In this document: piece after piece, positions 2,462 through 47,588 of the stretch
Position numbering within the stretch: the stretch's first letter is position 1
How the letters are laid out: the number at the start of each line of letters is the position of its first letter
Origin: Lophium mytilinum
Lineage: Eukaryota > Ascomycota > Dothideomycetes > Mytilinidiales > Mytilinidiaceae
Length of the DNA stretch: 64,000 nt
Reading direction: 5' to 3'
NCBI GenBank assembly: GCA_010093605.1
Contig: MU004185.1
Location: forward strand, 68,067-132,066
Program-made: the position numbers and the translations under genes
The notes under the pieces: generated by a model
What the model saw: only the letters and a program-made list of their open reading frames with translations
Told to the model about the DNA's origin: nothing
Databases searched by the model: none

Positions 2462-3573
2462 TCAATCAAATTTGACTGCAACCCTTCCCCGGAACTTCCC
2501 TTCCTTCATAAGATCAATCATCTCGTTGATCTGCTCTAATTTATAGTAGGCTATCTTGGATTTAATGCCATGCTTCACTGAGAAGTCCACAAACTCTGGA
2601 AGTAGTCTTGGGATCTTGTTCGAGCTTCCTATGACCCTGAATTTCCGCAGAGCAATGAACATCGAGTTGAACGACAACGGCTCTTGTGGTAATCCAACGA
2701 CCATGAGAATTCCATTGATCCTCAGCAGATCGGTCGCGCTCTCGTACGCCGCTTTCGAGTTTGTGTAGTTCACAACAGCATGGCAGCCGCCTTTGGTGAT
2801 TTCCTTTATCTTCTTCACGTAGTCCTTGTCCGTCCGAGTGTTGATTGCGTAATCTGCGCCGCACTCTTTCGCTTCCTCGAGTTGGATATCATTGATATCT
2901 AGGGCGATGATCTTGAAGCCCATGGCATGTGCGTATTGAACCCCTAAAATTCATTAGCCAGTTCCAAAGCTTCAAAGCAAACCTGCTCACCCAAGTGCCC
3001 AAGCCCTCCAACGCCAATAATCGCCATCCACTCCCCCTCCTTCAGTCCAGCTAGTCTACAGTCATCAATCCCATGATAACTCGTCACCCCCGCACAAAAC
3101 AACGGCGCCGCTTCCACCGCCCTCAACTCCGCTGGCAGCACGATCGCATTCCGCCAATCCACAGCGATGTACTCCTGGAAAAACCCGTCCGCCGCATGCC
3201 CGGGCATCTTACACCCCTTCTCACACCACATCTGGTGGATCTGGCAGCCTTCACACTCGTAGCAGCAGTTCGTCGCGGGTAGGAAGCCGACCTCGTCGCC
3301 CACTTTGAAGCCTTTGCATTCGGGCCCTGCGCTGACGATCACACCCGCGGCTTCGTGGCCGAGGGTTACGGGGACGTCGGACTCGAGCTTTAGGCCGATG
3401 TCGTTGGGCTCGAAGTTCATGAGGTCGGAGCGGCAGAGGCTGCTGCATATCGTCTTCACGAGGAGATCTGTGGGCAAGGGCTTTGGAACGGGGATCTCGT
3501 TGATGTGGATTGCGTTGTCGCTTCGGTGGTATTGGGCAGCTTTTTGGGTCGCTGGGATCTTGGGGGAGACCAT
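2462..3573 (-). CDS. Zinc-dependent alcohol dehydrogenase (MDR superfamily)
   Basis: Two exons, complement(2462-2943, 2991-3573), give 354 residues, the usual length for a fungal zinc alcohol dehydrogenase. The protein would interconvert an alcohol and an aldehyde or ketone with NAD(P)(H) in the cytosol. Catalytic zinc ligands appear as SLCRSD (Cys47) and GHEAAG (His73/Glu74). The structural zinc lobe is visible as four cysteines in the CCYECEGC...C stretch near residues 103-117. The Rossmann motif GVGGLGHLG spans the splice junction; the intron starts gtgagc, ends ttttag, and restores GHLGVQYAHAMGF. It is the first gene of the oxidative cluster running to 17.2 kb, on the same strand as the next SDR and monooxygenase. 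The exact substrate cannot be read from sequence. Confidence 0.92.
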
Positions 3574-4423
3574 CTTGACGCGTGGAAGGGTCTTTGGGGG
3601 TTTCGGACAAGAGAAGGCGAGGAGGAGAAAATGAGAGCTTTGTTTGGAAGCTGTGAAATTTGATATGGCTCGCGATGATTAATGGGTAGTATTTACGCGT
3701 CCTCGCGTGGATAATCATAGCCTAGTGTTCCATTATGGAGCCGTATGCTGAGGTTTGGTAAAAGGCCATCACGGGGATCGGAGGTGTGAGACCGCAGCAA
3801 CTATTGTAAGTTCTCAAAAGACTGAATCATTAGTCTCATAAGAGGAGCGTTCGAATATGCTAACAGATGCAGGTGACGGTGCGGGAAGGTCATGGTACCG
3901 ATGATGTGCAAGTGGCGGCAGCTCTCACAGCTACACAGGAAGTTTTGCGGTCGAGTTGAGCCATACCAAGCTAAGCATTGGGTCTCTAGGAGCGGGGATG
4001 CATGATGCATGAGCTTGTAGCTCTGAGTGTCACGTGACTTAGTCAGCAGGGATTTCCGTGAAGTCCACCTCGCCCCTTCTCCTCTTCTCCCCCAATGACA
4101 TGTCCACATCCCCGCGTCTTCTTCCCTCACCATCAGCTTTGTGCGTTCGGTCTTGCACCTCCGGGACTTCTCCACCGCTAGCCACGCGCCGAACGGGAGC
4201 CCTAGTTGCGGGGTATCTCCACCAGATCATGCGCGACGGACATTGAAGTCCTTCCCCTGTTGAAAACACTAGCGCAATCCAGATCTCGACCGCACGGCAT
4301 GGGATGGGATCGTATTGCGAGGCCGACTATGTTTTCTCGAGGCTGTACACTACTCAGTCGCACTTTTGATCGTGGAAAAGTCGATGTCACGTGTTTGGAC
4401 AAGGAAGACTTCTTTACTGCTGC
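3574..4423. other. Intergenic region between ADH and SDR genes
   Basis: About 850 bases without a convincing gene. The short open frames on both strands lack family motifs and usable splice signals. It contains a palindromic GTCACGTGAC at 4029-4038 and another CACGTG core near 4388, the kind of site bound by bHLH regulators in fungi. The promoter of the ADH gene lies at its left edge and the 3' end of the SDR gene at its right. Confidence 0.6.
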
Positions 4424-5285
4424 TCAACATACCCATCCGCCGTCAATTTGCTGAACAGTCCCACTAATGTACTGACTCTCGTCGCAAAGCAGCCAGCATA
4501 TCAACGACGCAATCTCCGAAGGCTCTCCTTCGCGCTTTATTTGCTGAACCCAGGGCATTCCCTCTCCTCTATGCTCCGACACTTTGTGGTACATGGGTGT
4601 ATTTATGATTCCCCTTAAACCCACAGAGCACCTGTTAGACACGGCATCGCCTCGGGGAGGCCATCGACTTACGGGGCTATGCAATTGACTCGAATGCCCT
4701 TCGTCGGTCCGACTTTCTTCGCGGCGCATTTCGTCAAGCCTACAACACCAAACTTGGATGCTCCATATGCCGCGCAATTCGCAAATCCAATCAGACCCGC
4801 AACGCTAGATGCGTTCACTACGCTTCCCTTGTTGTTCATATATTGCAGCTCCGATCGCATGCAGTACATTATCCCAGTGAGGTTGACTGAAATAACGAAG
4901 TCCCAGTCGGATGTCTGCTGGTCCTCAACGGTGCCAGTATGGAATGTTTTGGGCAACACTCCTGCCAAGTTGGCTGCGCCATCTAGCTTCCCAAACTTTT
5001 CGACCGTCTTCTCAATCCAAGCTGCTACCTGTTGCTCACTTCGGACGTCTACAGCCGTAGCCATGACTTGCCCACCGGACTTCTCGATATCGGCTGCTAC
5101 GCTGAATAAAGATTCCTCCTGAATATCGGCCATCGAGACTTTTGCTCCTCGCGCGCAGAGCATCTTGCAAGTTTCTAATGCCATTCCTGTTGAGTTCTTA
5201 GCTTATAGTATAGATACGTTGGGGTGTACTCGCCTCCTCCGGCTCCTGTGACTACAATCACCTTTCCTCGTAAGTTATTTGACAT
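4424..5285 (-). CDS. Short-chain dehydrogenase/reductase with a GC-AG intron
   Basis: Three exons, complement(4424-4613, 4673-5186, 5234-5285), give a classical SDR of 251 residues. It would be an NAD(P)-dependent alcohol/ketone oxidoreductase in the cytosol. Exon 1 reads MSNNLRGKVIVVTGAGG. The first intron must begin with GC (gag|gcgagt) and end cag to give the cofactor motif TGAGGGMA; a GT donor would break the frame. Exon 2 holds NLAG, the serine in NASS and the catalytic YGASK. The second intron (gtaagt...ttaag) restores NCIAPGIINTPM, the PG motif after the active site. The C-terminus ends SGTVQQIDGGW, typical of the family. It is co-oriented with the neighbouring BVMO and ADH. Family certain, substrate unknown. 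Confidence 0.92.
5187..5233 (-). other. GC-AG intron of the SDR gene
   Basis: The 47-base intron starts gcgagt after an exon ending gag and finishes caacag. Only this donor keeps frame and rebuilds the TGxxxGMA nucleotide-binding motif. GC-AG introns are a small minority in fungi, and this one has an otherwise strong donor context. Confidence 0.75.
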
Positions 5286-5691
5286 GCTGAAGTGTGTTTG
5301 GAGCTCGGGCGGTTTCTATTCCAACGAGATTTCTTTTATTCATGCCATCAGCCCTTTCGTCCTTCTATATCACGTTCTGTCAGAAGAATAGAGCCGTATT
5401 TCAATCTCCACATGTGCTTCCTAGCGTGGCTGGGTCGCGGAGCGGAGAAGTCCTACGCTACGGGAATGGATTCGCGCGATGGAGCACGTACTTCTTAACC
5501 ATCACGTGATACGCTCATCTTTTCAATGTTCTCGCCGCTGTGACTATAGGCCCAGAGCTAGGGACACACATTTAGAGAGAAGAAATGATGGTCTTTGAGG
5601 AAGATCAGGTCCACAGGGTAATTATTGCCACGAAAAGGTTATAATCAGAGGAACATGGTATGCCGCAAATATAACAGTTGAAACATCCACT
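5286..5691. promoter_or_regulatory. Intergenic, SDR promoter and BVMO 3' flank
   Basis: About 400 bases holding the upstream region of the SDR gene and the 3' flank of the monooxygenase gene. A TCACGTGA core lies near 5502. No gene is visible. Confidence 0.5.
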
Positions 5692-7749
5692 TCAGCACCA
5701 CGCCTTCCAATTCGGATCGTCCTCATCGAGCTCTGGCTGCGGCTCTCGCACCACCGTGCCGCTTTTCGTCAACACCTTTCTCACTTTCGCCTTACTCAAA
5801 TACGGCGAATCGTCAACCTCCCGGATATAATACGCCCAATCGCAAGTCTGATCTAATTCCGTTTGACTGAAGCCATTCCCCAACCAATCGAACCTGTTTC
5901 CCTTATATGCGACATCAAAATCGTCCGCACGCAAGTACTGCATCGCCTCGCAATAATGCAGCGAGCTGCCAGGCCAAAGCGCCGAGACGCGACCGTCGAT
6001 GGTCCCGTGCTTGTACCAGCTACGGCAGCCGGCTTTCCAGATTGTATCGCGCATGAAGAGGTCAGTGCGAGCGGCGAAGTCGTTTATGGCAGCTTGTTTA
6101 GGTATGAAAGATTTGATGTTTTCGGTTTGCCAGCGGTCACACCAGCGGAGCATGTAGTCGGCTTGTGCCTCTGCGTCATCTGGTCAGTTAAAAGTCATAC
6201 TGCGGTGCTTGAAGAACTACTTACCAATAGCTCCAACCAGAGGACCGCTCCCTATGGGGCAATTTGGACCTAAGAAGTGGAGGTAATTTGGCTGCTCTGG
6301 CGCGCCAACTCCCATGTATGAGTGTGCCTCTCCCGCTGATCCCCACAAATCCTGAAGGTTCTTTCCATTCTTTCCGTGTATAGGAAAACGGGGCTTAAAT
6401 GAGGTGTCGAAACCAGTGGCGCAAATCAGAACATCCATTTCGTACTCCTTACCGTTGTCGCAGACCGCGCCCTGCTCGTTGATCTTGGTTATCTCGCCGT
6501 AGACAACCTCCACATTCGGCTTTTGCAAAGTCTCAAGATACATGATGCCCGGCGTCATTCTTCGGCAGCCGAATCCCCACTGCGGTATCAACTGCTCTTG
6601 AAGCTTCTGATCTATGAGACGCGTTCGCATCTGAAACCCAACTCGCTTCTTGGTAGTTTCTTGCATTTTGCTTCCGTTTAAAAACATAGGGTAGATCGAA
6701 TTGACAGTGCTCTCGATGTTCTTACGCTGTTCTAAGAGGTGGCCTGGGCGGTTTGCGAAAGCGTCTAATTCTTCTTTAGTATAAATGTGTTGATCGAGCC
6801 CTTGAATTGGAGCGACCCATGTTGGGCTCCTGAAAAATGTCGTCACCGCTTTGACCTTGGGGTATATAGCTGGCAAGATCTGTATACCAGATGAGCCATT
6901 CCCGATTAATCCCACGTTCTTCCCCGCCAAATCAACGGATTCATCGTAATGCGCGCTGTGCAGAAGCTGGCCTTTGAAATTCTGTAATCCAGGTATGGAT
7001 GGCCACTTCCAATTGTTGAGGATCCCAGATGCGTTGATTAGGATGTCGCAGCTCTCCTCCAGGATAGTGCCTGTAGTATGGTCTTTCACTCTCACGTTCC
7101 AGAGGCCTTCTACTTCCTCCCATCGTGCCTCGATGACTTCGTGGCTGACGCTGATATACCGGTCCAAACTGTATTTTGCTGCGAAATCCTTGAAGTACTT
7201 GAAAATCTCCTTACTTCCCACGTATACGGCCGACCAATCTTTTTTCTGCTCCCAGCTCCAGACGTAGTTGTGGCCTGGGACGTCGCAAGCGCACCTTTGA
7301 CCACCATGTTAGCAATGTCGGAACCTGATGGGTATGAATGTTACTCACCCTGGGTATCTGTTCTCAAACCATGTCCCTGAAATGTCGGGGTTCTTCTCAA
7401 ACACTCTGAGCGAGAAATTCTCAAATGATCGCTGGAGTTTGTATGCGAAACACAGTCCGGAGGCGCCAGCTCCAATGACTACGATTCGCATGGGGCGTTC
7501 GGAGTGGATTGGGCCTCCTAGTTCTTCGTTTCGATAATAGCCGTTCTCGCCATTTCGGCGTTTGGCGTTTGAAGGCGTTTGTGTGTCGAAATGACCGTTG
7601 GCGGCATGGCCTTTAACCCCGTTTTTGGGAAACAGAGACGACGCTTCTGGGGAAGTTTCGCTGATAAGCACGCCGTTGGCGTGCTTTCCATCGCCGTTGA
7701 AGTTTGAGTTTAGAGTTGTGACAACGGGAGGTGGGATTACATCCGCCAT
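5692..7749 (-). CDS. Baeyer-Villiger-type FAD monooxygenase (BVMO 1)
   Basis: Three exons, complement(5692-6179, 6225-7294, 7349-7749), give 652 residues. Type I BVMOs use FAD and NADPH to insert oxygen next to a ketone, giving esters or lactones. A variable, Asn/Gly-rich N-terminal extension of about 85 residues precedes the FAD Rossmann motif GAGASG (93-98). Next come GTWFENRYPG|CACDVPGH across intron 1, the BVMO fingerprint FKGQLLHSAHYD (about 240-251), the NADPH motif GNGSSG (about 265-270) and CATGFD near the FAD-domain end. The C-terminal exon contains SWYKHGTIDGRVSALWPGS, a common end block of fungal BVMOs. All introns are GT-AG with gtgagt/gtaagt donors. Flanked by two SDR genes, it probably acts on a ketone supplied by one of the dehydrogenases; that link is inference. 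Confidence 0.93.
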
Positions 7750-8407
7750 CCTTCCCTTCGGCAGCGTGAAAATGCCGCTAGAAATAGAGCAAAGTCTTGA
7801 TAGACGAGATTATGAAGAATATCTCCCCGCAGGCTACGTATGTTTAGATCATATATCCGCGTTCTGCTCAGACTCTTTCTCGAGTTGGTCTCTCTTGGCA
7901 TCATTCTACAGCGTCGGAAGGAGTATCACAACGACCGGCATACTATGCTCGGGATCAGGTATGCGGGGTGCCAAGGTACCGGCCTTCCAAAGCCATGGTC
8001 GGGAGATTCAATTCTCGCTTCTTGGTTCCCGTGGCGTAGGCGAGAGTCCTAGTGTTGGACTCTTCTCGGTTCTCGCTACGGCTTTCAATGTCCGAATGCT
8101 TGAGTCGACGAATCTTCAAGCATTTGCCTGAAGATTGCTCCCAAATTGGAAATTGTCTAAATTCGACCCTAACATAAGGAGCGCGGTCATTCACTTTTCC
8201 AGGCTTTGCCTTTGCTAGCTCCGGATCTAAATGTACTGCCTGCAAGGGCCATACTCCATGCACAGCTATTCACTTTTGCGGTTCATGCCAATATTCACTC
8301 ATCTAGGACTAAAAAAGGAAGGATCTTACCACCAAAATCCACGAATCTGGACTCATTTTCTGACACTATAGCCTACATCCATGAGAATTATTTTCTACTT
8401 CTGAACC
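7750..8407. promoter_or_regulatory. Divergent promoter region between BVMO 1 and SDR 2
   Basis: The 658 bases separate head-to-head genes, so the stretch should contain both promoters. Open frames here are short and show no family motif. A CTCCGGAT element sits near 8218. No clear TATA box was chosen. Confidence 0.55.
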
Positions 8408-9305
8408 ATGAAAACCGCCAAAACAGCCTTAATCACGGGGGGTGGTCGGTAGCCCCTTTCCCAGCATCTTTTTCCCGTAACTGAATCCCCTCTTCAGCTA
8501 GTGGCATGGGCCTAGCAGTCGCCCGGGCTCTTCACTCCAAAGGCTGGAATATTGCCCTAGTTGATCTAGACTCTACAAATGGAACCAAAGTCGTCGCCGA
8601 ACTCGGCTTAAACTCCATATTCATCGAAACGGATGTCACCGACTACGCTTCCCAAGTGCTCGCTTTCGAGAAGACAGTAGCCCGATTTTTGGATATAGAC
8701 TTCGTTTTCGCGAATGCAGGCATCGCAGGCCGAGGCGGGTTCTACGACTAAACCAAGGATTGGCCGCCAAAGCCGCCATCAATGCTTCTGCAAAATGTAT
8801 GCCTAACAGGTGTGGTATACTCTAGCTGGCTGGGTATGCATTATATGCGACGGAATGCGGTTCCAGGCGGGTCGATTGTCATGACTGCTTCAGGTACGTT
8901 CTCTAGCCAACCTCCTACACCCGCGTCGTTCTCCAGTCTAATGACGACGAAGCCGCTTCACTCTACCCTTCCCCAGATCTACCGCTCTACTGCTCAAGCA
9001 AGCACGGCGTATTGGGTCTGATGCGGTCCATGAGTATCCCTTTAGCAAAAGAGAATATTCGCGTGAGTTGCATTCTTCCTGGCGCAATCCATACTTCTCT
9101 TCATCCTGAAGACGTGTGGGCGCAATTTGGGAGGGAAAATTTCACTTCTATCGACCTGATTGTGAAAACCGTGCTAGAGTTGCTGAATGGCGAAGAGGCG
9201 GCTGGGAAAGCGATGGAGGTGAGTGCCGGTGAGGTGTTTGATAGGAAACAGCCAAAGTTTTGTAACGAGACGATGCGATTGATTATGACGGATAAGGAAT
9301 ACTAG
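8408..9305 (+). pseudogene. Short-chain dehydrogenase/reductase with one in-frame stop (SDR 2)
   Basis: The exon structure 8408-8448, 8502-8893, 8977-9305 is intact, with GT-AG introns, and would encode 253 residues. The NAD(P) motif TGGGRGMG forms across intron 1. Next are NAG in FANAGIAG, the catalytic serine in MTAS and YCSSK across intron 2, then LPGAIHT. The reading frame runs through the whole gene except for one TAA at 8749-8751, between FYD and TKDWPPKP. The sequence on both sides is in the same frame and looks family-like. So either a single substitution has killed the gene or the base is wrong. No intron with credible ends removes the stop. It lies head-to-head with BVMO 1 and tail-to-tail with the MFS gene. 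If truncated, the product lacks the active site. Confidence 0.8.
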
Positions 9306-9497
9306 TAATTCCGCATAGAAAGTTGGCAAGAAAGCTAACAAGTGCAAGCTGGAAAAGACATCTTGCACATCTAGAGTAGTATATGTTGCAACAGTGATCG
9401 AGTGAGCTCATATTTGCTATCAGAGTAACTCCCGACAATATTACATGCTTTGCTTTCGTAAAGACAATACCACCCACTTCAATTGGAACAAATGTTA

Positions 9498-11573
9498 CTA
9501 ATGGAACTTATTCTTCTCAGCCAAAGCGTCGTTCTCCAAGAAAGTCTCAATCTTCTCATTCATCTTCGGCCCGATGTCCTCGCAGAAACATGCCAAGATG
9601 ATACCAACGACCCCAAAGGCCATCGAAGCCAAAGCAGCATTTCTACATCAAGGTCAGCAAGAATCCTACAACACGTCAGAATATGTGAGTCAATGATCCA
9701 TACCTCAGTCCATAAGCAACAGCGTACTTATACGCCGTCCCAATCGCCTCGGCGCCCTGAGGCGTAACCCCGGGAATCTTCTCAAGAGCAGCAGCTCCCA
9801 GTCCGGCAGCGGCAGAGACAGCGGCCATCGATGATTGAGGGATTCCAGCTGCCAGAGCGGCCTTGGGAATGAGTACAGCACCTCTCTCGGCGATGCCATT
9901 CGAGATTGCGCTTGAGTAGCAAGCGCTCGCAACAGCGCCGCCGGCGTACCGTGCTGTTCCTGCCAGGCCGCCCGAAAGTCCGAGCATAGTCTGGGGAACG
10001 CCGAGTTGGGTGTAAGTCACAGAGAGATAGGCTGCCCAGCCGTACGATAGTTGGCTTAGGGTCACGAAGGTAATCATCGTGACTTTGTTGTAGGGTGTCA
10101 TCAGGGCGAGGAGGCAGCCAAAGAGGACCAGTGAAAATGTTGAAGCGATCCTGGAAATAGCGTGTTAGTTTTCATTAGAAGAAGAGAAGCGAGTCTTGGA
10201 ACGTACATGGTGATTTTCCAGTGCCCAATTTTCCTTCCAAAAGCGACGAGGAGCATCGCTCCAAGTGGGAGTGCCAAGTTAGCCGGGAGCGTTAGCAGCA
10301 GCTGTGTGGAAATTGAGGTATTTGCATCGATATAGAAGGCATCTGGGGATTTGAAGTCAGTCAAGATGGAGTAATAATGCGTGCTATCGAGGTTTGGCAT
10401 GCTTACTGAGCATCGTAGGGTAAATGACCGCCGTGCCGTAGAAGAACCCAACGATGATGAAAGTGAGGCAGAATGGTACCCCAAATTCGCGACCTTTGTG
10501 ACTTGAGAAGATTTCCTCGGGGCATAGAGGGAATCGAACACCCGAAAAACGTTCCCAAAGTCCAAAAGCAATGATGAGTACAAAGCCAACGACGAGACAG
10601 ATAATGACCCTTTTGTCAGTGGCGGGAATGTAACTTGTGTAGACCACTAGATCCAGTTAGATTGTTTCATCACTCATAGGGCGAATACGTACTGCCTACG
10701 AGAACGAGAATGGCCCCGATGGTGAAGAGAATGGCTCCAACCCAATCCAAACCGCGTACGGCCTCTTTCCACGGAACTCCCCGGGGGTGTTTTGGAGGCT
10801 GATAAAAGATGAACAATCCAATAAAAGCAATCATAGTGAAAACGAAGCCTCCCCAGTAGACATATTGCCACCTACTATCGCTATTGATGATTGCATAGCG
10901 CCCTACCACGGGGCCTATGACGATCATAACGTATACGAAGCCATCGGCGAGGACCACACCGATGTGTCGATATTTGTTGGGAATCAATTCCGGTACCGCG
11001 ATCAGAGCGACACCGGCCATGCCAGATCCAAAACCATTGAGACTGAGTCCGGCGATCAACATGCTCGTGTTGTGAGCGCGCGCGCACACGATATAGCCAA
11101 CCGCAGTTACAAGGTTTGCTGCGAGTAGAAAGTATCTGCGGCCGAATAGATCGCTGTTAGCGCCGAAAATGAGGATGCTGATGGTAGCGCAGGTGGTGAT
11201 GCAAGGAATAACCCAAGATGATAATTCAACTTGGCCCAATTTTGTCAATAGTTGGGAAGACATCGCAGCCGTTGTAGGAGTGGCCCTTTTCTATTTTAGC
11301 GACGATAATAAGAACAATTTCGAGAGAGATTGGTACCAGAATGGTGATCCGAAGGTCATAACCAGAAACTTGAGATACATTAGTACTATTTATGCAAATA
11401 AAAGATGGTAGTCTCACAAAAATGCAAAGCCATGCCTTCGGAGTCGTTCGTTCCTCTCTCACACCCTCGTGTTCCGCCTTGGTCTCATCAACCGCAGTGG
11501 AGTTGGTTGGCGAGTGGGTTTCGATGTCTTCCGAATGCACGATATCGTGATCGGACTTTTCAATTGCAGCCAT
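9498..11573 (-). CDS. MFS transporter, Tri12/DHA2-like, about 14 TM
   Basis: Seven exons, complement(9498-9642, 9704-10150, 10207-10342, 10407-10646, 10693-11285, 11337-11368, 11418-11573), give 582 residues, the usual size for this plasma-membrane efflux family. Splicing joins WLCIF to FLVMTFGSPFW and then ATPTTAAM through a 32-nt exon. Family landmarks include the loop FGANSDLFGRRY after the second helices, a 14-TM hydropathy pattern, and the conserved C-terminal block SYGWAAYLSVTYTQLGVP...GTARYAGGA. These match the fungal family that includes the trichothecene efflux pump TRI12; the trichothecene substrate is not implied. The acidic N-terminus (about 45 residues) is cytosolic. Within the cluster it probably exports the product or imports the substrate (inference). 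The last exon ends ENDALAEKNKFH. Confidence 0.92.
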
Positions 11574-12340
11574 GGTTTCTCACAAAGAGAGGAAGTGTCT
11601 TGAGACGAATGTGTAGTACGGCGATGCAGGACCAGAATGCAGAGGTTATCTCGGGCTTGATATAGATATAAGGACTATAAAATGAGACTCTCCACGCCTC
11701 AAAACTCAAATGAACTAAGCCGTTTTGTCTTGACTCAAATATGGCGCCTATCACCTAGCAAAAATGGAAAATGAGACGCCACAATTCCCTGGCGTCTCCA
11801 TGCTATGGGATACGGATTTGTGGAGTATGGGGTAATCTTGCGGGGAAGCGCAACGATGATTCATTAGTTCCCTCTAGCGGCTCCTGCAGATTGGTCCCAG
11901 TCAATCGTCCTTGTCTCTGAAGGCACATGCGCACTACGGTCATTGAAGTCCGGGGGACGCGACTGATCAACGCAACCATCGGCTGCGTTCTGCCGGCCAA
12001 CATCACTGGCCACACCTCTATCCTATTGGTCTACGGCTAGTATGCAGGTGAGGTGGATTCACATGCACATATTACCAGCTCCATGGTCTCGGAGTTGACT
12101 TTTTGGCATGGTCTGAAGGTTGTCGCCGCGGAGGCAGAAGACCGACTTTTCATAGTCTCTCCGGCATTGGAGAGACCGTGGTCAAAAAAGGACCAATGAA
12201 GGCAAGCCCTTGGGAACGATCAGGGTTCCAGACGCAATACATCAGGTATTCCCGCCATAGGCAATGTAAAGTTTCTTCGTATACTACCAATAATTTGATA
12301 ACCTTGCTACGCTTGCCGTACGGCTAATTTCTCTGTCGCA
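11574..12340. promoter_or_regulatory. Divergent promoter region between MFS and BVMO 2
   Basis: The 767 bases separate two head-to-head cluster genes. No protein family is visible. The region contains a perfect 8-6-8 inverted repeat at 12155-12176, described separately. Confidence 0.55.
12155..12176. promoter_or_regulatory. Perfect inverted repeat, candidate regulator site
   Basis: GTCTCTCC and GGAGAGAC flank a 6-base spacer (GGCATT), a perfect dyad with CTCCGG at its centre-left. It lies 165 bases upstream of the BVMO 2 start, between divergent cluster genes, where a site for the neighbouring Zn2Cys6 regulator would be expected. The link to that regulator is inference. Confidence 0.4.
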
Positions 12341-14564
12341 ATGGTCTATCCGGGCCAACTCCATTATTCTGAGTTCAAAGCTCCAATATTGAATAGACCA
12401 ATCGACGATCCAGGCCGCAAACTCCGGATCATTTGCATTGGCGCTGGAATCTCGGGAGTTACGACTGCAATTCGTTTCCGACAGCATTTAGGCGCAAACA
12501 TAGACCTTCAGATATACGAGAAAAATGCGGGTATGGGCGAAGAGCACTCCCAGAGAATCAGCATAGCATACACTGACTGGGTTTGGTAGATATTGGAGGT
12601 GTGTGGCTGGAGAATAAATACCCAGGCGTAGCCTGCGACATCCCAGCGCCGTGTTTCGCGTTTTTGTTTGAAGACAACCCTGATTGGTCTGAATACTATG
12701 CTGGAGGTAAAGAGATCAAGGACTATGTGCAGCGAGTGGCTACAAAGTATGGTGTCAGAGAAATGATGAAGTTTCAGCATCCTGTGCAAGAAGCAGTATG
12801 GCACGAGGGAGACGGGAAATGGCGGCTCAAGATCCATGACATCCAGAATGATGTGGTAGGTCTTCAGGACTTCCTCATCTAGGTTGCACAGCTAATATCC
12901 TGACAGATGATTGAAGATGAGGCGGATATCGTGGTGATGGCGTGGGGTATGCTGAATAACTGGGAGTTCCCCAAGATTCCGGGAATTTCCATGTTCAAAG
13001 GCCCCAATATGCATACTGCTGATTATGACGAGACTTTTGATCCCACGGATAAGGTGGTCGCGCTTGTTGGGGGAGGATCAACTGGTGTGCAGGTGCTTCC
13101 GCACATCCAGAAGAAGGCAAAGAGGGTACATCATTACATGAGATCGCAGTGAGTACCTCCACTAGCCCCCATGTCTAATGCCAGAGTAGGAGAGCTGAAT
13201 CGTCGAAATAGGAACTGGATAGCTCCTGTTGGGTTCGGGGCCGGCGAGCTTCAAAAGCGCCAGGCGCTCGAAGCCGGAAACTGTACGTAATGTAGCGAAA
13301 CGTGATGAACCTCAGCTGACGGCAAACCAACTAGTTTCATATGCAGAAGAAGAACGTCGACGCTGGGCTGAAGATCCAACATCTTACCATGAGTATCGTC
13401 GGGGCATCGAGGATGGTATAATGGCATATATGGCAGAGTCGGGATTCACCTACGGTTCTCCAGAGCAGCAAAAGATGGAAGGAGAGTTCCGAGCGCGCAT
13501 GAAACGTGCCCTGGGCCAAAGACCCGAGATCTTGAAAACGTTACTTCCAGAATTTCCTCCTGGGTGTCGTAGGCTGGTACCAGGGCCTGGGTACCTCGAG
13601 GCGGTCGTAAAGGATAACATCGAATGGATCCCGGAGCAGATCGAGAAAGTGACTGCAGAAGGCATTGTAACTAAGGATGGTATATTACACAGATGCGACG
13701 CTATCATCTGGGCGACTGGCTTCATTTGGTAGGCATAGCTCCTCATACTTTGAGAGGCGCATGCTGATTATGATACCTAGTGATTTCAGAAGCCGCTTTC
13801 CAGTCACTGGCCGCGACGGAATTACTTGGAACCAAGTGATGGATCCGGAGCCTGAGGCGTATCTCGGAGTCCTTGTCGACAAAATGCCAAACTGCTTCCT
13901 GTACTTTGGTCCTAATTGCGCGCCTGGCGCTGGAAACGCCTACCTTGCTATAGAGACCGAATGCGAGTTGATGATCTCGTGTATCAAGAAGATCCTAAGA
14001 GAAAAGATCAAGTCGATTTGCATCAAGTCAGTATCTCAGCACAGTTATAGAAATTCGCGGGTAGTGATCCTGATCCGTCTTAGGCAAGAGAGAGTAAAGC
14101 AATACGTCGCGCACGTCAATGAATACCTTAAGAACACCATCTTTGGACAGCCGGTAGGCCACGCACGAAAGCTATTTGACCAACACGACTATTAACTCCA
14201 ACAGTGCAAATCGTGGTTCAAAAGAGGCGATCCAACCGGTCGAAACATCGCATACTACCCTGGAAACTCGTTAAACCTGCTCTACGTAGCAAGGAATCCC
14301 CGATGGGAAGACTTTGACTATACGTACCTAGACGAAATGGGCGGCAATCCCTTGACGTGGCTCGGCAATGGCTATACGATGGCCGACTACGATGGCAGTT
14401 CGAGGACTTCGTACCTTGATCCGGCGGTCATCGACTATCCGCCGATACCTGAGGCAGAGATTCCTGTGAATGAAAATACGACCAGTGAGAGCTATGAGCG
14501 GGTGGAGATCAAAGATCCTGCAGATGTCAGTGTTGTACTGCTCCCAAGAACAACTGCTGCATAG
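12341..14564 (+). CDS. Baeyer-Villiger-type FAD monooxygenase (BVMO 2)
   Basis: Eight exons (12341-12530, 12590-12855, 12907-13148, 13212-13282, 13335-13728, 13781-14026, 14084-14153, 14205-14564) give 612 residues. The FAD motif GAGISG is at 34-39, and EKNADIGGVWLENKYPG forms across intron 1. The fingerprint-like FKGPNMHTADYD follows at about 182-193, then the NADPH motif GGGSTG at about 207-212, and WATGF before intron 5. The C-terminal exon starts CKSWFKRG and contains NPLTWLGNGYT. The intron at 14027-14083 has a weak donor (gtcagt) and a length divisible by three, so retaining it would not shift the frame. This gene is only distantly similar to BVMO 1 and has many more introns, so the two are not recent duplicates. 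Likely cytosolic ketone or aldehyde oxygenase; substrate unknown. Confidence 0.92.
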
Positions 14565-14819
14565 AAAGCTCGCACTGTATCGTCAAGACTGCGGTGACAT
14601 TGGTTGGTGATCAGATTTATATAGACATCAGAGAAAGAAGAAGTTTCATGATGTTTCGGGCTTCGTTCTCCGGGATGCGGGGTGCAAAACAAGCGAATCG
14701 TGGGGTAGACTAGCGAGGCGGCATGAAGATCAGCTAGTGAATTTAGTTCCCCTGCGGAGATCGACCTGCGACCTGCGACTCGCGACTCATCTCAATCACT
14801 TCCCACTATACTCCTAGCC

Positions 14820-17175
14820 ATGAATGAACAAACGTACCCCCGGCCAGTCCCTGCGTTGCAAAAAGATGGAATGGGAGGACTGCCTGGTATCCAATCGTAC
14901 TCTAATATCTCAAGCTTTACTCACCCTCGACCGGCTGCAAAGCCGAATCGCAAACCAAAGCAGCTGGCATGCATAAGTTGTCGCCGAAAAAAGGTCAAAG
15001 TAAGTATACTTGATACAACAGTAACCAATGAAAGCGTTAAAGCTCACAACACGTATTAGTGCTTACCTGGCTCCGGTGGGAGAGACGCCTGCTCCCTTTG
15101 CGCAAAGCTAAAGATCGAATGCTTCATCCCACAAGTCGACGAACGGCGCCAGTCGACCCCGAAGCGGTTGGTCAGAGATCTATGTGCTCAAATTGCCCAG
15201 CTTCAAGCCGAGTTAGATACGCATAAGCAGTACTGCCTCATGGGACCAGAGCAAGGAGACTCGTGCTCAGCCCAAGACGAAATTTTGAGCCCAGCATCCG
15301 AGTCTGGCAAATCTGACGGCTCAAAGTCTAGCAACTCCGACAATATGATCGTCCGGTTATGTGGGGGCCAACGCCAGCTCAACAGCGACAGAGTTGGCCG
15401 GCTACGTTTCTTTGGTCCAACGTCGAGTTTGCATCTGGCGGAAAGCGTGACGTCCTCGGTCTTGATACGCGAATCGAACGGAACGAGATCGCAGCTGCAG
15501 TGGCAAGATGAGTTTCCTCTAGACCTTCAGCAGCATCTTTTTAACCTGTTTTGGACGTATCAGCATCAAGTGCTGCCTATCATACATAAAGAAGGTACAT
15601 CCTTACTTGATCCAAAGCATAGTAGCGGGTTGACGCTGACTTCTGAACCAAAGCTTTCCTCCGTGATATGAACAACGGCCATACGAAATACTGCAGCAGG
15701 CTTTTGGTGTACTGCATCCTGACTAGAGCAGCGGCGATATCTGACCAACCAGGGCTTCGAGCTTTGGCTCTGAGCGATGATGCAGATGACGATCCGCCGT
15801 TCCTTGTCCGGAAGTGTGTCTCTTATCTAGATATCGAACTAAACAATCCGGGAATTACAACATGTCAAGCGTTGCAACTCCTCAGCGAGATGCACTGCGC
15901 AATATCGAATGATACAAAAGGCTGGATGTACGCTGGTAAGGACTTGCCGTTTCTAGCCTACGGTGGATGGATAAAGACTCACGCACTGTAGGCGGAGCTG
16001 GCCGCCTAGCATACGAGCTTGGTCTACACAGCGATAGCACAGGTCTCAGCACGAGTTTGAACAAGGTCGATCTAGAAGTGAGACAATTAGTGTTCTGGAG
16101 CTGTTTCAATCTTGACAGGTAAAGGTCGAGAAACTCGTCTAGAAGACTCTCACTAACCGTGAAAGGCAATGGGCACTCTATCTTGGTAGGCCTCAATGTA
16201 TAAAACTAGAAGATGTTTCGGTCAAGAGACCTGGAGATGGGTTATCGGACTTACCATCGGAAGAGACGAAGATTGCAGTGGCTTGGACAAGCTTGCTGGA
16301 GATTGTTGGTCTGATATGCGATAATCTGTAAGCCTTGGTTTCGGAACATACCCTAGCGAAAGCGGCTCTGACGACCTAGAAACGGGGTCAAAACTATACG
16401 GCGAGAGATAACGACTCTAGACCAACGCCTCCGCAGCTGGCCATCATCTCTCGATCCTTCATTTCAATATAATCCCCATCAATCTCCGGCGGTCATAATC
16501 TTGCAGTAAGTCTTGTCTGCGTACCTATTAACTGCGTGAGTTTCGCTGATGCCAGGCTGCAATAGCATGCAATACGCCGCCGCCTTGATCCTCCTCCACC
16601 GCCCTGTCGCCCACTTCGGAACAGACTCTGACTCAACAGCACACACATCTGCCAGTGAAACCTCACGCCAAATCTGCGTACATAATGCCTGCTTGATCGC
16701 TCAGTACCTCCAAGAGTACTACGAGAAACACGGCAGTGTACTCACCATGTCCTGGGTCGCGCTTCATATCATCGCCACCGCATCAACTACGCTCGTCGCC
16801 AACATTGCTGAGCGGAAAGGCTCCATTGATTTCAAATCACAGCTCTCATGCCTGCAGACGTGCATGCGGTCATTGAACGAGTTGGAGAAGAGCCATGTGG
16901 TGACGAGGAGGGTGAGGAAGGTTATCCAACATGCGATTCGCTTGTTGGACTTGGATTCGACCATTGACTCAATGACTACGTCGCTTCCCTACGTGGGTTC
17001 GTCGTCGTCGCAATTGGCTGGGTTGTCTGAGCCACTGGTGACGCCGAGTCAGGATTTGGAGTTTGGGCCTGCGAGACTGGAGACGATCCCAGAGGTGTTC
17101 CAATTCAACGATCTGCTACCTGTTTGGTCGCAGTTCGATATGTTGAATTCGTTCGAGTCTTACTTTTCGGGATAG
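14820..17175 (+). CDS. Zn2Cys6 transcription factor with fungal_trans domain
   Basis: Seven exons (14820-14999, 15060-15594, 15654-15935, 15992-16118, 16166-16327, 16380-16505, 16566-17175) give 673 residues. The Zn2Cys6 binuclear cluster is at residues 51-81 (Cys 51, 54, 61, 71, 74, 81). Intron 1 falls immediately before the third Cys. A basic linker (TPKRLVRDLCAQIAQLQAEL) resembling a short coiled coil follows. The fungal-specific regulatory domain shows YCSRLLVYCILTRAAA, a GRLAYELGLHSD segment formed across intron 3, and DRQWALYLGRPQC formed across intron 4. The acceptor of the last intron gives LHMQYAAALILLHRP, a conserved late block; the nearer CAG acceptor would lead to a stop. Located at the end of the cluster and co-oriented with BVMO 2, it is the likely pathway regulator. 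Confidence 0.92.
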
Positions 17176-27868: not shown

Positions 27869-28038
27869 CGTTACTTTTGCTTCCAGTGCTTGCCTATGTT
27901 CGAGACACTACAAAAGATACAATACTCTCTTGAATCGTCCTCTCACCGTACATTTCCACACTGTATCCCCTACGTTAACCAGAGTGACGGTCCTATACCA
28001 CAACGACACCACATGGGGCCAAGGGCCTTACTGAAACC

Positions 28039-29877
28039 ATGGCGTTCGAGTACGAACCATTGTCCTCTGGAGAATATCGTGTGCTCATTTTATTTCCTGC
28101 CTCTTGGTCGCAGCAACTCCTATGTGCCTTAGTATCAGGGCCACCTCACTCCCTCCCGAAATATGAAGCCGTTTCGTACACGTGGGGCCAGCCCGACCGG
28201 ACTCATCCCGTACTCTGCAACAACGCTACTAAAACACTAAATGGCCCAGACGACCTTGATATAGACACCTCTCTCCGGTTCGAGCGCGTCATTTACGTTA
28301 CAGAGAACCTCAAAACTCTTTTGCATCGCTTTCGACACGAGAACGAATCGCGATATCTTTGGATTGATTCCATATGTATCAACCAAAATGACTTATCGGA
28401 GCGCGCGGCGCAAGTGCAGATGATGATGACCATATATCATCTTTCACAAAGGGTAAATATATGGCTAGGTGAAGAGGACGAATACACCGAGCCAGCTTTT
28501 GGACTCTTAGGGCATTTGGTTGCAATCAGCCAGTCCAAACCTGACGGCATCCTGCAAACCGGGCCAACATGCTCACTCCCTACAACGCCGTTCATACCGA
28601 ATCCGCAACATTACTCCTGGACACTGTACGTTCCTCTTTTCCTAGCCTTGGACCAGCTCCTCCGGCGTCCATGGTTCAAACGCCTATGGGTCATCCAAGA
28701 AGTCGTCGTCTCCAAGCAAGCCACCGTAATATGCGGTAACCGGAGCGTAGACTGGAACCACCTTTTCGACGCGTGTCAGGTGCTAGAAAAGCGAGACCTG
28801 TTCTTCGACGACGTTCTCGGCCGGCCCTATATCTCTGTCATATCTATGGGAATTCTTAGACTGGCTTACCATGTCTTGCACTCAACCGTGGAGAACGAAG
28901 ACGCCCCATCAACACTGGCCCTACCTGAAGTTATTCTCCGCACCATGAATGCGGAAAGCTCGGATCCTAGAGACAAAGTTTACGCGCTGCTCGGAATGAT
29001 TCGCGAACAAGACCGCCAGAATCTGCGTCCAGATTACACGAAATCCGTTCGCGACGTGTACATTCAAATGGCACGCCAGCTGTGCCTCTTTAACGGGAAA
29101 CCGTGTTTCACCTTTATCGGCATAATATCGCAAAAGACCGCGACGCACAGGCTACCTTCCTGGGTTCCCGACTGGAGTGTGTCCCACCAGGCAATTGATC
29201 CGATCGCGAGATATGGACGGTTTCAAGCATCCAAAGATTCAGCGCTGTGCATGGAGTTCCCGCGTGAGGACGAGATAACAGACACGCGCTGCTGTCTGAA
29301 AGTCCGTGGAGTCTGTCTCTTAACAATCGGCACGATACAGCATCCCTCTCCTGGAAAGTCCCCGGATCGTGACGATCATTGCGCTACTCTTAATTCGTAT
29401 CGCGACCCCTATCCCACCACCAGCGAAACATATATCGAGATATACCCCAAGATTGTGAATCCAAAGGGCAAAGAGGACTTCTACCGGTCTACTCAACCAA
29501 CATGCAATTTCTGGGATTACGTAGCGGCCTGCGAATCCGGCGCGCATACAGCGGAATCTGAGGCTGAGCACCTCCGCTATCGTCAACGCGATGTGAACGC
29601 CTGCCTGCCTGAACTGCATGTCGCAGGCATACTCTCAAGTGCAGCGCAAAAGCGGAACTTTTTTACTTCCACGATCGGATTCATGGGCCTGGTTCCGGAA
29701 GAGGCCCAGGTGGGCGATAGGATATGCGTTCTCTTCGGCGTCGAAAGGCCTTTTGTTGTTCGGGAAAACGGGCCATCATGGACAATGGTAGGCGAATGTT
29801 ATGTACATGGCCTGATGGATGGAGAGGCAGTGGATGGTCTTCCTGAGGACAGAGTGAGGGAATTTGAGTTTCTGTGA
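28039..29877 (+). CDS. HET-domain (heterokaryon incompatibility) protein, intact
   Basis: Single-exon gene of 612 residues. The three HET blocks are present and intact: YEAVSYTWG (residues 42-50), LWIDSICINQNDLSERAAQV (about 110-130), and RPWFKRLWVIQEVVVS with a following CGNRSVDW (about 211-240). The region after HET contains the usual SSDPRDKVYALLGM helix and LRPDYTKSV. The start follows an A at -3 (CCATGG context). HET proteins trigger cell death on fusion with incompatible strains and often sit in variable genomic regions. No NACHT, ankyrin or WD partner domain is present, so it is the short form. The partner specificity cannot be inferred. Confidence 0.94.
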   Translation: MAFEYEPLSSGEYRVLILFPASWSQQLLCALVSGPPHSLPKYEAVSYTWGQPDRTHPVLCNNATKTLNGPDDLDIDTSLRFERVIYVTENLKTLLHRFRHENESRYLWIDSICINQNDLSERAAQVQMMMTIYHLSQRVNIWLGEEDEYTEPAFGLLGHLVAISQSKPDGILQTGPTCSLPTTPFIPNPQHYSWTLYVPLFLALDQLLRRPWFKRLWVIQEVVVSKQATVICGNRSVDWNHLFDACQVLEKRDLFFDDVLGRPYISVISMGILRLAYHVLHSTVENEDAPSTLALPEVILRTMNAESSDPRDKVYALLGMIREQDRQNLRPDYTKSVRDVYIQMARQLCLFNGKPCFTFIGIISQKTATHRLPSWVPDWSVSHQAIDPIARYGRFQASKDSALCMEFPREDEITDTRCCLKVRGVCLLTIGTIQHPSPGKSPDRDDHCATLNSYRDPYPTTSETYIEIYPKIVNPKGKEDFYRSTQPTCNFWDYVAACESGAHTAESEAEHLRYRQRDVNACLPELHVAGILSSAAQKRNFFTSTIGFMGLVPEEAQVGDRICVLFGVERPFVVRENGPSWTMVGECYVHGLMDGEAVDGLPEDRVREFEFL

Positions 29878-45515: not shown

Positions 45516-46166
45516 CTATGGCTTCTCCCCAGTCCCCACCACCTCCCCATACAGACGCACTGGATCCTCGCTACTGTACTTCTTGATGTCCTCGACGAGC
45601 TCCTTCATCTCTACTTCAACCTCTGTTGCGGCTTTCCATGCGTCCAATGAGTCCCATAATAACTCCGCCTTCACCGCGTACGGCCCCTCGGCATATGTCT
45701 CGACATGATACCGCTTCATTCCGCGCGGATACCAGTACTTAGTGGCCAGTCGCAGGTGCGTGGAGAGGTAGTAGTTGAGGTTGAACGTAGCTGTTGCGGT
45801 GCGCGGGTAGAGAACTGTTATTATGCCACTTGGCATGGCTGCGGTGGGGTCGCTCTTCTCACCAGTCCCCACCACCTCCCCAAACCACTGCACCGGAGCT
45901 TCATTGCTATAATTCTTGACGTCCCCAAAGATCTCCTTGATCTCCTCTTCAACCTCTTTGGCGGCTTTGAATGCGTCTAACGAGTCCCACACGCACTCGG
46001 CCTTCACTGTGTACGGCCCCTCGGCGTGCGTCTCGACGTGATACCGCTGCATTCCGCGTGGATACCAATATTTGGCGGCCAGTGGCATGTGCTTGGAGAG
46101 ATAGTAGTCGAGGTCGAAGGTGGAAGACGCGGTGCGCGGGTAGAGGATTGTCATTATAGTAGGCAT
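45516..46166 (-). CDS. Internally duplicated EthD-like protein
   Basis: Single-exon gene of 216 residues made of two near-identical EthD-like halves (about 1-105 and 112-216). Each half carries TxLYPRTA, YYLSxHxxLAxKYWYPRGM, RYHVETxAEGPYxVKAE and GEVVGTGEK. The start is placed at MPTIMTILYPR; the frame continues upstream but without an ATG. The linker between halves reads SDPTAAMPSG. The codons upstream of the start, if read, would give DPTATMPT, so the linker seems to descend from the 5' leader of an ancestral single-domain gene. EthD proteins are small dimers; here one chain could form the dimeric barrel alone. Function is not known. Confidence 0.85.
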   Translation of the reverse strand: MPTIMTILYPRTASSTFDLDYYLSKHMPLAAKYWYPRGMQRYHVETHAEGPYTVKAECVWDSLDAFKAAKEVEEEIKEIFGDVKNYSNEAPVQWFGEVVGTGEKSDPTAAMPSGIITVLYPRTATATFNLNYYLSTHLRLATKYWYPRGMKRYHVETYAEGPYAVKAELLWDSLDAWKAATEVEVEMKELVEDIKKYSSEDPVRLYGEVVGTGEKP

Positions 46167-47588
46167 GGTTGCGGTGGGGTCGTCGTAGTGGTTTGAACCG
46201 CGGGGTGTTAGGATGAATATACGGAGGTGAGGGGGGTAGAAGGAGTCTACTTGAAGGAGTGTTATCAAGATGTATGGATGAGGCGGAATTTTGAACAAGC
46301 TTCCTTTATACGTGGGTAGAGGTATGTATGTTTTCGATCCTTATGTAGCTACAATAGCACTACAGTCATTTGATTCCCCTCAGACCATAATTCCCGAGGC
46401 ACGATCCGCTCCACGGACTAAATCGCATACAACGGATTTAGGCTATCGAGAGGGTCTCAATGGCCGAATAAGGAGGGGAGGCGAATTAGTCCGTGCGGCG
46501 GCTATGTCCCTCTTTCCACACTTTAGCTCCTTATGATATCGTATATCCGTTGTCTCCGTTTCATTACTCGCGGATCAGAGTCGTCAGCAAAAAGTAGTGG
46601 AGTTTCAAATGCACGGGTGACTAATGCAACGTCCTTCGCTTTCAACAAGCTCGATCTGATAATTCCCAAACGTTACGGTGTTGCTTACTACACCAAATCG
46701 GTGAACAAACTCGGCATGACAGTCGGGGTTATCGTTTACACTCGCGACTGGCAATTTCCAAAGGTTCCATCTGACGTCTTATAATGTCCTAAGCTGCGTC
46801 TTGCCTTGATGCAATGGTAGCGAACCTAAAGAGGACTGGCGCTCCCAGAAAGCACCTTATGGGGCTCGAAAATTCCATAGGCTTGTGTAAGTCCTAAGTC
46901 TGGGTACTGTGCTTTGGTACTGTTTCAATTATACTTTCATCCATTCGAAAACCCGCGAGGATGGATAGATCGAAGCACTTTCGGAGTGATACATGGTGCC
47001 ATCGGGAGGTGTATTTCGGGATCGAGCTTCCCGACTTGGCCCCTTCTTCTCTCGCTAAGTCTAAGCCGAGCTCCTCTACAGACATCCTCTCCTCCAATCA
47101 TCAATGTCTTCTGTACCTTGCTCCTCATCGCAGGCGTATCACAGCAGCAATTATCTCGCTCACCAGTGCCAATTCATCGCACACCAAACCGCCAGCCTTG
47201 TTTCATCAGCGAGCACCGGCCAGTCGCCCATCCAATGATCGCCAACAAGAGGGGATGGTGCGAACTCGTGTGCCGTTGAGACGTGGTTGTATTACACTAT
47301 GTGGCACTCAAGACCTGGTGCTCACAAGCTACTGATTTATTGAAGTGCTACGGTGTTACATTGTGTCTGCGTTGTGCCGTGTGCCGACCTACTTGAGAAG
47401 ATGGTGAGGGTGGGACAGAGTGGGGAGGTGCACGAGGCGAGGAAGTAGAAGACCGGCCATCATTCGTTTTTATTCCGCCTTCGTCGGTCCTCTTCATCTC
47501 ATCTCTGGATTTGGTCCTATACTTCAAATTCTTTGCCGCTAGTCCTCGTCCTACCCGTGATTTTCTTTCGGTCCAGACTACGATCTCA
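46167..47588. other. Intergenic region
   Basis: About 1.4 kb. It contains the promoter of the duplicated EthD-like gene and, at its right edge, that of the CorA-like gene. Opposing open frames around 46900-47300 show no motif and are rejected. Confidence 0.5.

Follow-up and report, generated by a model that had tools for sequence, protein, structure and literature searches.

Seven genes near one end of contig 5 of Lophium mytilinum (MU004185.1) form a fungal oxidative cluster that goes beyond chance neighbours, as is evident from linkage shuffles and from a promoter site common to most of the genes. They encode an alcohol dehydrogenase (ADH), two short-chain dehydrogenases/reductases (SDR1 and SDR2), two flavin monooxygenases resembling Baeyer-Villiger monooxygenases (BVMOs), a major facilitator superfamily (MFS) transporter, and a Zn2Cys6 transcription factor. 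The reading we favour, and hold to be reasonably probable, is a subtelomeric, regulator-controlled cluster that degrades or detoxifies a secondary alcohol or ketone and that is reduced, perhaps decaying; the substrate class is suggested by protein similarity. The closest solved relatives point the same way and include cyclohexanone monooxygenases, alcohol dehydrogenases, a levodione reductase, and a cyclohexanol dehydrogenase.

The stretch analysed here (the window) comprises 64,000 nucleotides, contig 5 positions 68067-132066, from a 43.2 Mb genome in 24 contigs; positions are those of the window unless a contig is named. CCCTAA telomere repeats open contig 5, which puts the genes ~70-85 kb from the chromosome end and the cluster, therefore, in a subtelomeric setting. 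Gene models were built from splice sites and homology, without transcripts, and span 2462-17175:

2462-3573, minus strand: zinc-dependent ADH, 354 aa; exons 2991-3573 and 2462-2943; PF08240 (4.2e-20), PF00107 (1.9e-27)
4424-5285, minus strand: SDR1, classical SDR, 251 aa; PF13561 (1.2e-58)
5692-7749, minus strand: monooxygenase 1, BVMO-like class B flavin monooxygenase, 649 aa, 2 introns; PF00743 (3.6e-15)
8408-9305, plus strand: SDR2, with an in-frame TAA at 8749-8751
9498-11573, minus strand: MFS transporter of the TRI12 family, 582 aa, 6 introns; PF06609 (1.7e-37)
12341-14564, plus strand: monooxygenase 2, BVMO-like class B flavin monooxygenase, 612 aa, 7 introns; PF00743 (9.2e-12)
14820-17175, plus strand: Zn2Cys6 transcription factor, 673 aa, 6 introns; PF00172 (2.7e-06), PF04082 (8.9e-29)

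Pfam matches concur with the assigned family for all seven genes, and six of the seven have open frames with usable splice sites, SDR2 being the exception. Introns measure 46-64 bases and are GT-AG throughout save one GC-AG intron in SDR1. The models and Pfam matches thus bear out the gene limits of the initial annotation, its count of two versus seven introns in the monooxygenases, and its two head-to-head pairs (monooxygenase 1 and SDR2, 658 bp apart; MFS and monooxygenase 2, 767 bp apart). For ADH, SDR1 and both monooxygenases, no NCBIfam match above cut-offs was found among the matches listed.

Promoter sites and recurring gene combinations

The seven genes are probably co-regulated, to judge from their promoters. 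The five intergenic promoters, with the positions of CGG-N10-CCG in each, are as follows:

3574-4423: P1 (ADH); sites at 3779-3794, 4148-4163, 4162-4177
5286-5691: P2 (SDR1); two sites with one mismatch each
7750-8407: P3, divergent (monooxygenase 1 and SDR2); site at 8079-8094
11574-12340: P4, divergent (MFS and monooxygenase 2); sites at 11937-11952, 11980-11995, 12129-12144
14565-14819: P5 (regulator); site at 14657-14672

A scan of 63 triplet-pair patterns placed eight of the window's 15 CGG-N10-CCG sites inside these promoters, which together make up 2,936 of the 64,000 bases (4.6%; binomial p 9.4e-8, with 63 patterns tested). Four of the five promoters contain the site, the regulator's own included. 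Thirty other spacings of the same triplets yield only 0-2 promoter sites (mean 0.47) versus eight at N10, and the density of CGG/CCG in the promoters is ordinary (27.9 versus 25.9 per kb). When a comb of the five intervals is slid along the window, eight sites are captured at 4 of 1050 positions, the unmoved comb included, and the maximum falls to four once the comb is shifted at least 3 kb downstream (920 positions). Likewise, the spacers of the eight sites resemble each other beyond letter-shuffled spacers, a likeness reached by 34 of 3000 shuffles. CGG-N11-CGG is enriched too (8 of 28, p 2.7e-5), but of its eight sites in the promoters five or more overlap N10 sites.

Pattern-free comparisons were more modest. 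Words of six bases common to at least four promoters are in slight excess (49 versus 29.5 expected by shuffle, reached in 1 of 60 shuffles), and those of seven number 3 versus 0.93 (reached in 5 of 60); no 8-mer is common to at least four promoters, and 3+3 dyads common to all five show no excess (37 versus 34.1). Across the genome, a 16-bp consensus has 15 matches versus 16 for a backwards control. Four of the 15 lie within the cluster, and since these same four sites served to fit the consensus, the count speaks to specificity only. CGG(N10)CCG is the reported site of Put3 in Saccharomyces cerevisiae (PMC5729217). Overall, a Zn2Cys6 regulator lies inside the cluster and a putative site of the corresponding binding type is common to four of its five promoters.

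The combination of genes also recurs. The genome was searched with all seven proteins (SDR2 by its second piece only), and matches outside the cluster were reduced by hand to 35 monooxygenase, 109 SDR, 46 ADH, 43 MFS, and 24 regulator loci, two weak matches resembling flavin-containing monooxygenases (FMOs) being dropped. Linkage was compared with 2000 circular-shift shuffles, for which the sizes of 12 of the 24 contigs were estimated; the recurrence so measured concerns paralogous loci of the same genome, not related genomes. At least three of the five families fall within 15 kb at six places versus 0.30 by shuffle (no shuffle reaches six), and a monooxygenase is present at five of them. Four families meet within 15 kb at one place (reached in 4 of 2000 shuffles), and all five lie within 25 kb on contig 14 at 1.520-1.541 Mb (0 of 2000). 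Together, the common CGG-N10-CCG sites and the recurring combination support a co-regulated oxidising cluster.

The contig 14 locus (1.516-1.544 Mb) resembles the focal cluster in its relatives of ADH (42-47% identity), the Zn2Cys6 regulator (28-35%), the monooxygenases (37-40%), the MFS transporter (32-50% over three pieces, and the top-ranking single MFS match beyond the focal cluster), and SDR2 (52% and 29% for its two pieces). It differs in being non-colinear, in having one monooxygenase and two MFS genes, and in adding, by Pfam, an acyl-CoA dehydrogenase, an alpha/beta hydrolase, an AMP-binding enzyme, and an aldehyde dehydrogenase (ALDH). A second locus, on contig 10 (679-696 kb), holds the best regulator paralogue together with an AMP-binding enzyme, a cytochrome P450, an acyl-CoA dehydrogenase, two SDRs, and a monooxygenase. 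The predicted partner enzymes at both sister loci fit an alcohol-ketone-ester-acid-acyl-CoA breakdown route.

Monooxygenases and dehydrogenases

The initial annotation described two unrelated BVMOs. They are instead colinear paralogues, 35% identical from end to end and 38% over residues 19-441. Monooxygenase 1 has closer paralogues, by exon, on contig 14 near 391 kb (57-70%) and on contig 5 at 1012 kb (51-76%), and monooxygenase 2 has one on contig 10 at 83 kb (43-56%). Because each has nearer paralogues elsewhere in the genome, the two are separate lineages and did not arise by a recent tandem duplication; for the same reason, the earlier suggestion that they oxidise different intermediates is plausible. 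Elsewhere, three monooxygenase loci sit amid several SDRs on contig 10 (60-84 kb), two monooxygenases adjoin on contig 5 (1009.6-1014.3 kb), and contig 10 carries a monooxygenase-SDR-monooxygenase-regulator series at 1927-1934 kb.

Whether these enzymes deserve the BVMO label depends on which evidence is consulted. Their best solved relatives are cyclohexanone monooxygenases (6er9 at 6.4e-54 for monooxygenase 1; 6era at 1e-44 for monooxygenase 2), and the catalytic Asp and Arg of cyclohexanone monooxygenase are matched in the alignments by the YPGxxxD aspartate and a CRR arginine. GAGASG and GNGSSG occur in monooxygenase 1, and GAGISG and GGGSTG in monooxygenase 2. The type I BVMO fingerprint [A/G]GxWxxxx[F/Y]P[G/M]xxxD is matched by monooxygenase 2 (GGVWLENKYPGVACD) and reads SGTWFENRYPGCACD in monooxygenase 1, with S at the first position. 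Neither protein matches the second fingerprint, FxGxxxHxxxW[P/D], in which Y replaces W: the string is FKGQLLHSAHYD in monooxygenase 1 and FKGPNMHTADYD in monooxygenase 2, and the FMO motif, for comparison, is FxGxxxHxxxY[K/R]. Within the genome, 14 second-fingerprint strings were recovered from 61 loci (both focal ones included, and some of the others by chance), with one further YD and one YN; among prokaryotic loci, 11 strings end in YP (strings from 77 of 80 loci). The tyrosine is therefore a minority variant and not unique. Both monooxygenases most likely work like type I BVMOs, and since both deviate from the strict fingerprint, the BVMO label is only probable; hence the term BVMO-like class B monooxygenases used here.

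The prokaryotic loci are the best 80 of 206 relatives, at 28-32% identity apart from one at 38%. That one (L062, NYXK01000081.1), from a Deltaproteobacteria metagenome-assembled genome, matches monooxygenase 1 above the other 79 loci kept and is possibly a fungal contaminant of the assembly or a case of transfer. A bacterial origin of the cluster finds no support, given the low identity and the fact that none of the best 80 loci pairs an SDR with an ADH in its fetched flank.

Among the dehydrogenases, ADH is closest to alcohol dehydrogenase 1rjw (3.7e-57) and SDR1 to levodione reductase 1iy8 (3.8e-44), with cyclohexanol dehydrogenase 4ure ranking third. Classical SDRs carry the motif TGxxxGxG, and SDR1 reads TGAGGGMA at that position. 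Its first intron (5187-5233) is the GC-AG one, GCGAGT..CAACAG.

SDR2 is probably broken, and inactive here, because of its in-frame TAA. The pieces flanking the stop, searched separately (96 aa N-terminal and 164 aa), both match adh_short (PF00106, 5.1e-18 and 8e-19), and the stop sits between what we take to be the cofactor-binding part and the presumably catalytic YxxxK. Alternatively, it may reflect an unannotated intron, a sequencing error, or readthrough. As many as 25 hypothetical GT- or GC-to-AG cuts across the stop restore the frame. By eye, none of their donor hexamers is GTRAGT; one donor, GTAGCC, is identical to that of the first SDR2 intron, which counts against lost coding sequence, and cuts from this donor would delete the conserved NAG stretch. 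R..FY before the stop also occurs in the contig 14 relative (by eye), which favours lost coding sequence.

Proposed function and alternatives

We propose that the Zn2Cys6 protein senses the substrate and, binding CGG-N10-CCG as a dimer, activates its own gene together with those for the transporter, ADH, and both monooxygenases. ADH and SDR1 would convert alcohol to ketone, this direction being the presumed one; one monooxygenase would then form an ester or lactone by oxygen insertion, with the other probably acting later on a second carbonyl, and the TRI12-type carrier would move substrate or product. Hydrolysis of the ester and the acyl-CoA steps would be supplied from elsewhere, the contig 14 sister cluster harbouring candidate genes. 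Since SDR2 is probably inactive, the pathway would use the remaining dehydrogenases, or is decaying.

Several observations weigh against this proposal. SDR2 is interrupted by a stop, and the SDR1 promoter contains no perfect CGG-N10-CCG. At the sister loci the site is not evidently enriched: the contig 14 locus has 7 in 36 kb and the contig 10 locus 6 in 25 kb, compared with 15 in the 64-kb window. These loci are also non-colinear and only ~27-52% identical by piece. The shuffle null ignores the general clustering tendency of accessory enzyme genes. In the fetched flanks of the best 80 of 206 prokaryotic relatives, an SDR appears in 17, an ADH in 4, and both in none. Finally, Pfam searches of the seven genes and of 10 flanking open frames (a selection from the listed frames) turned up neither an esterase, ALDH, or CoA ligase nor any gene of beta-oxidation, which leaves a catabolic route incomplete. 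The initial annotation had called the cluster a self-contained unit for ketone processing or detoxification. Promoter sites and recurring linkage uphold the cluster; "self-contained" is doubtful, because ester hydrolase, ALDH, and CoA ligase are missing from the seven and one SDR is probably broken.

The TRI12 match, the in-cluster Zn2Cys6 regulator, and the subtelomeric position would equally suit a tailoring-only secondary-metabolite cluster that modifies and exports a scaffold made by a distant backbone enzyme, the TRI12-type carrier being the exporter, and BVMOs do act in biosynthetic clusters, as reported for MoxY in aflatoxin (PMC6315744). We consider this unlikely. With all 23 candidates scored, the nearest ketoacyl synthase (polyketide or fatty-acid type) on contig 5 is 1.6 Mb away, and the contig 14 and 10 loci keep catabolic company (AMP-binding enzymes and acyl-CoA dehydrogenases, with ALDH on contig 14). 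No backbone domain appeared in the 10 flanking frames, terpene synthases not being searched. Nonribosomal peptide synthetases (NRPSs) are partly covered: 14 of 98 AMP-binding candidates were scored, from a list that omits the AMP-binding frames already known from contigs 14 and 10, and the nearest among the matches listed is at contig 5, 303.6 kb. The earlier claim that no backbone enzyme is present thus stands for the polyketide or fatty-acid type within 1.6 Mb.

Less likely again is a decaying remnant of a once fuller ketone-catabolic cluster like that on contig 14, with SDR2 dead and the rest retained without useful selection. The in-frame stop and subtelomeric position fit such a remnant, as does the lack, unlike the contig 14 locus, of a hydrolase, ALDH, and AMP-binding enzyme among the seven genes; the intact frames and splice sites of the six other genes, and a regulatory site retained in four of five promoters, argue against it. 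Independent neighbours, that is, common oxidoreductase, transporter, and regulator genes brought together by chance in a gene-rich accessory region, would draw on the large SDR, ADH, and MFS families counted above, and are very improbable, since the linkage shuffles and the CGG-N10-CCG statistics both speak against chance.

The catabolic or detoxifying cluster that we favour shares its chemical logic with the bacterial cyclohexanol/cyclohexanone route, which proceeds through ADH, BVMO, lactonase, ADH, and ALDH, and the best solved relatives of its monooxygenases come from the same enzyme type; it differs in that the seven genes include no lactonase or ALDH. The closest published parallel that we found is the terpene response of Grosmannia clavigera. 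The BVMOs CMQ_6956 and CMQ_7007 are reported to be implicated in terpenoid detoxification (PMC8120277), monoterpenes raise alcohol dehydrogenase and beta-oxidation genes, many of them in one genomic region (PMC4368105), and a 30-gene cluster responds to terpenes (PMC3680317). Two BVMOs plus an alcohol dehydrogenase are common to both fungi, a likeness of description and not of sequence comparison. The Grosmannia region also has beta-oxidation genes, and because that part was not found in the focal genes or the 10 flanking frames searched, we do not file the cluster as Grosmannia-type. No published cluster of this composition was recognised in the literature covered, which mostly excluded subscription papers.

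Nearby, a HET-domain gene (PF06985) lies at 27988-29877; upstream of the seven genes, the open frame at 963-2159 (within 1-2162) appears HET-like by eye, with no Pfam match. The open frame at 45516-46340 consists, by eye, of two similar copies of ~100 residues each, likewise with no Pfam match.

More tentatively, the genome may have assembled the five families into a repertoire of modular monooxygenase-dehydrogenase clusters, each with a different downstream set. The focal cluster would then be a two-monooxygenase module whose Tyr-for-Trp members act serially on a single compound within a Put3-type CGG-N10-CCG regulon, a possibility that we hold only loosely.

What BVMOs act on and do physiologically is reported to be widely unknown (PMC4498894), and this genome holds ~35 further monooxygenase-family loci beside the focal two, which makes the cluster worth study. 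The contig 14 and 10 loci offer a natural comparison set for gene gain and loss in such clusters. Finally, a cluster that brings along both a regulator and a readable site would provide a direct way into the substrates and the responding genes.

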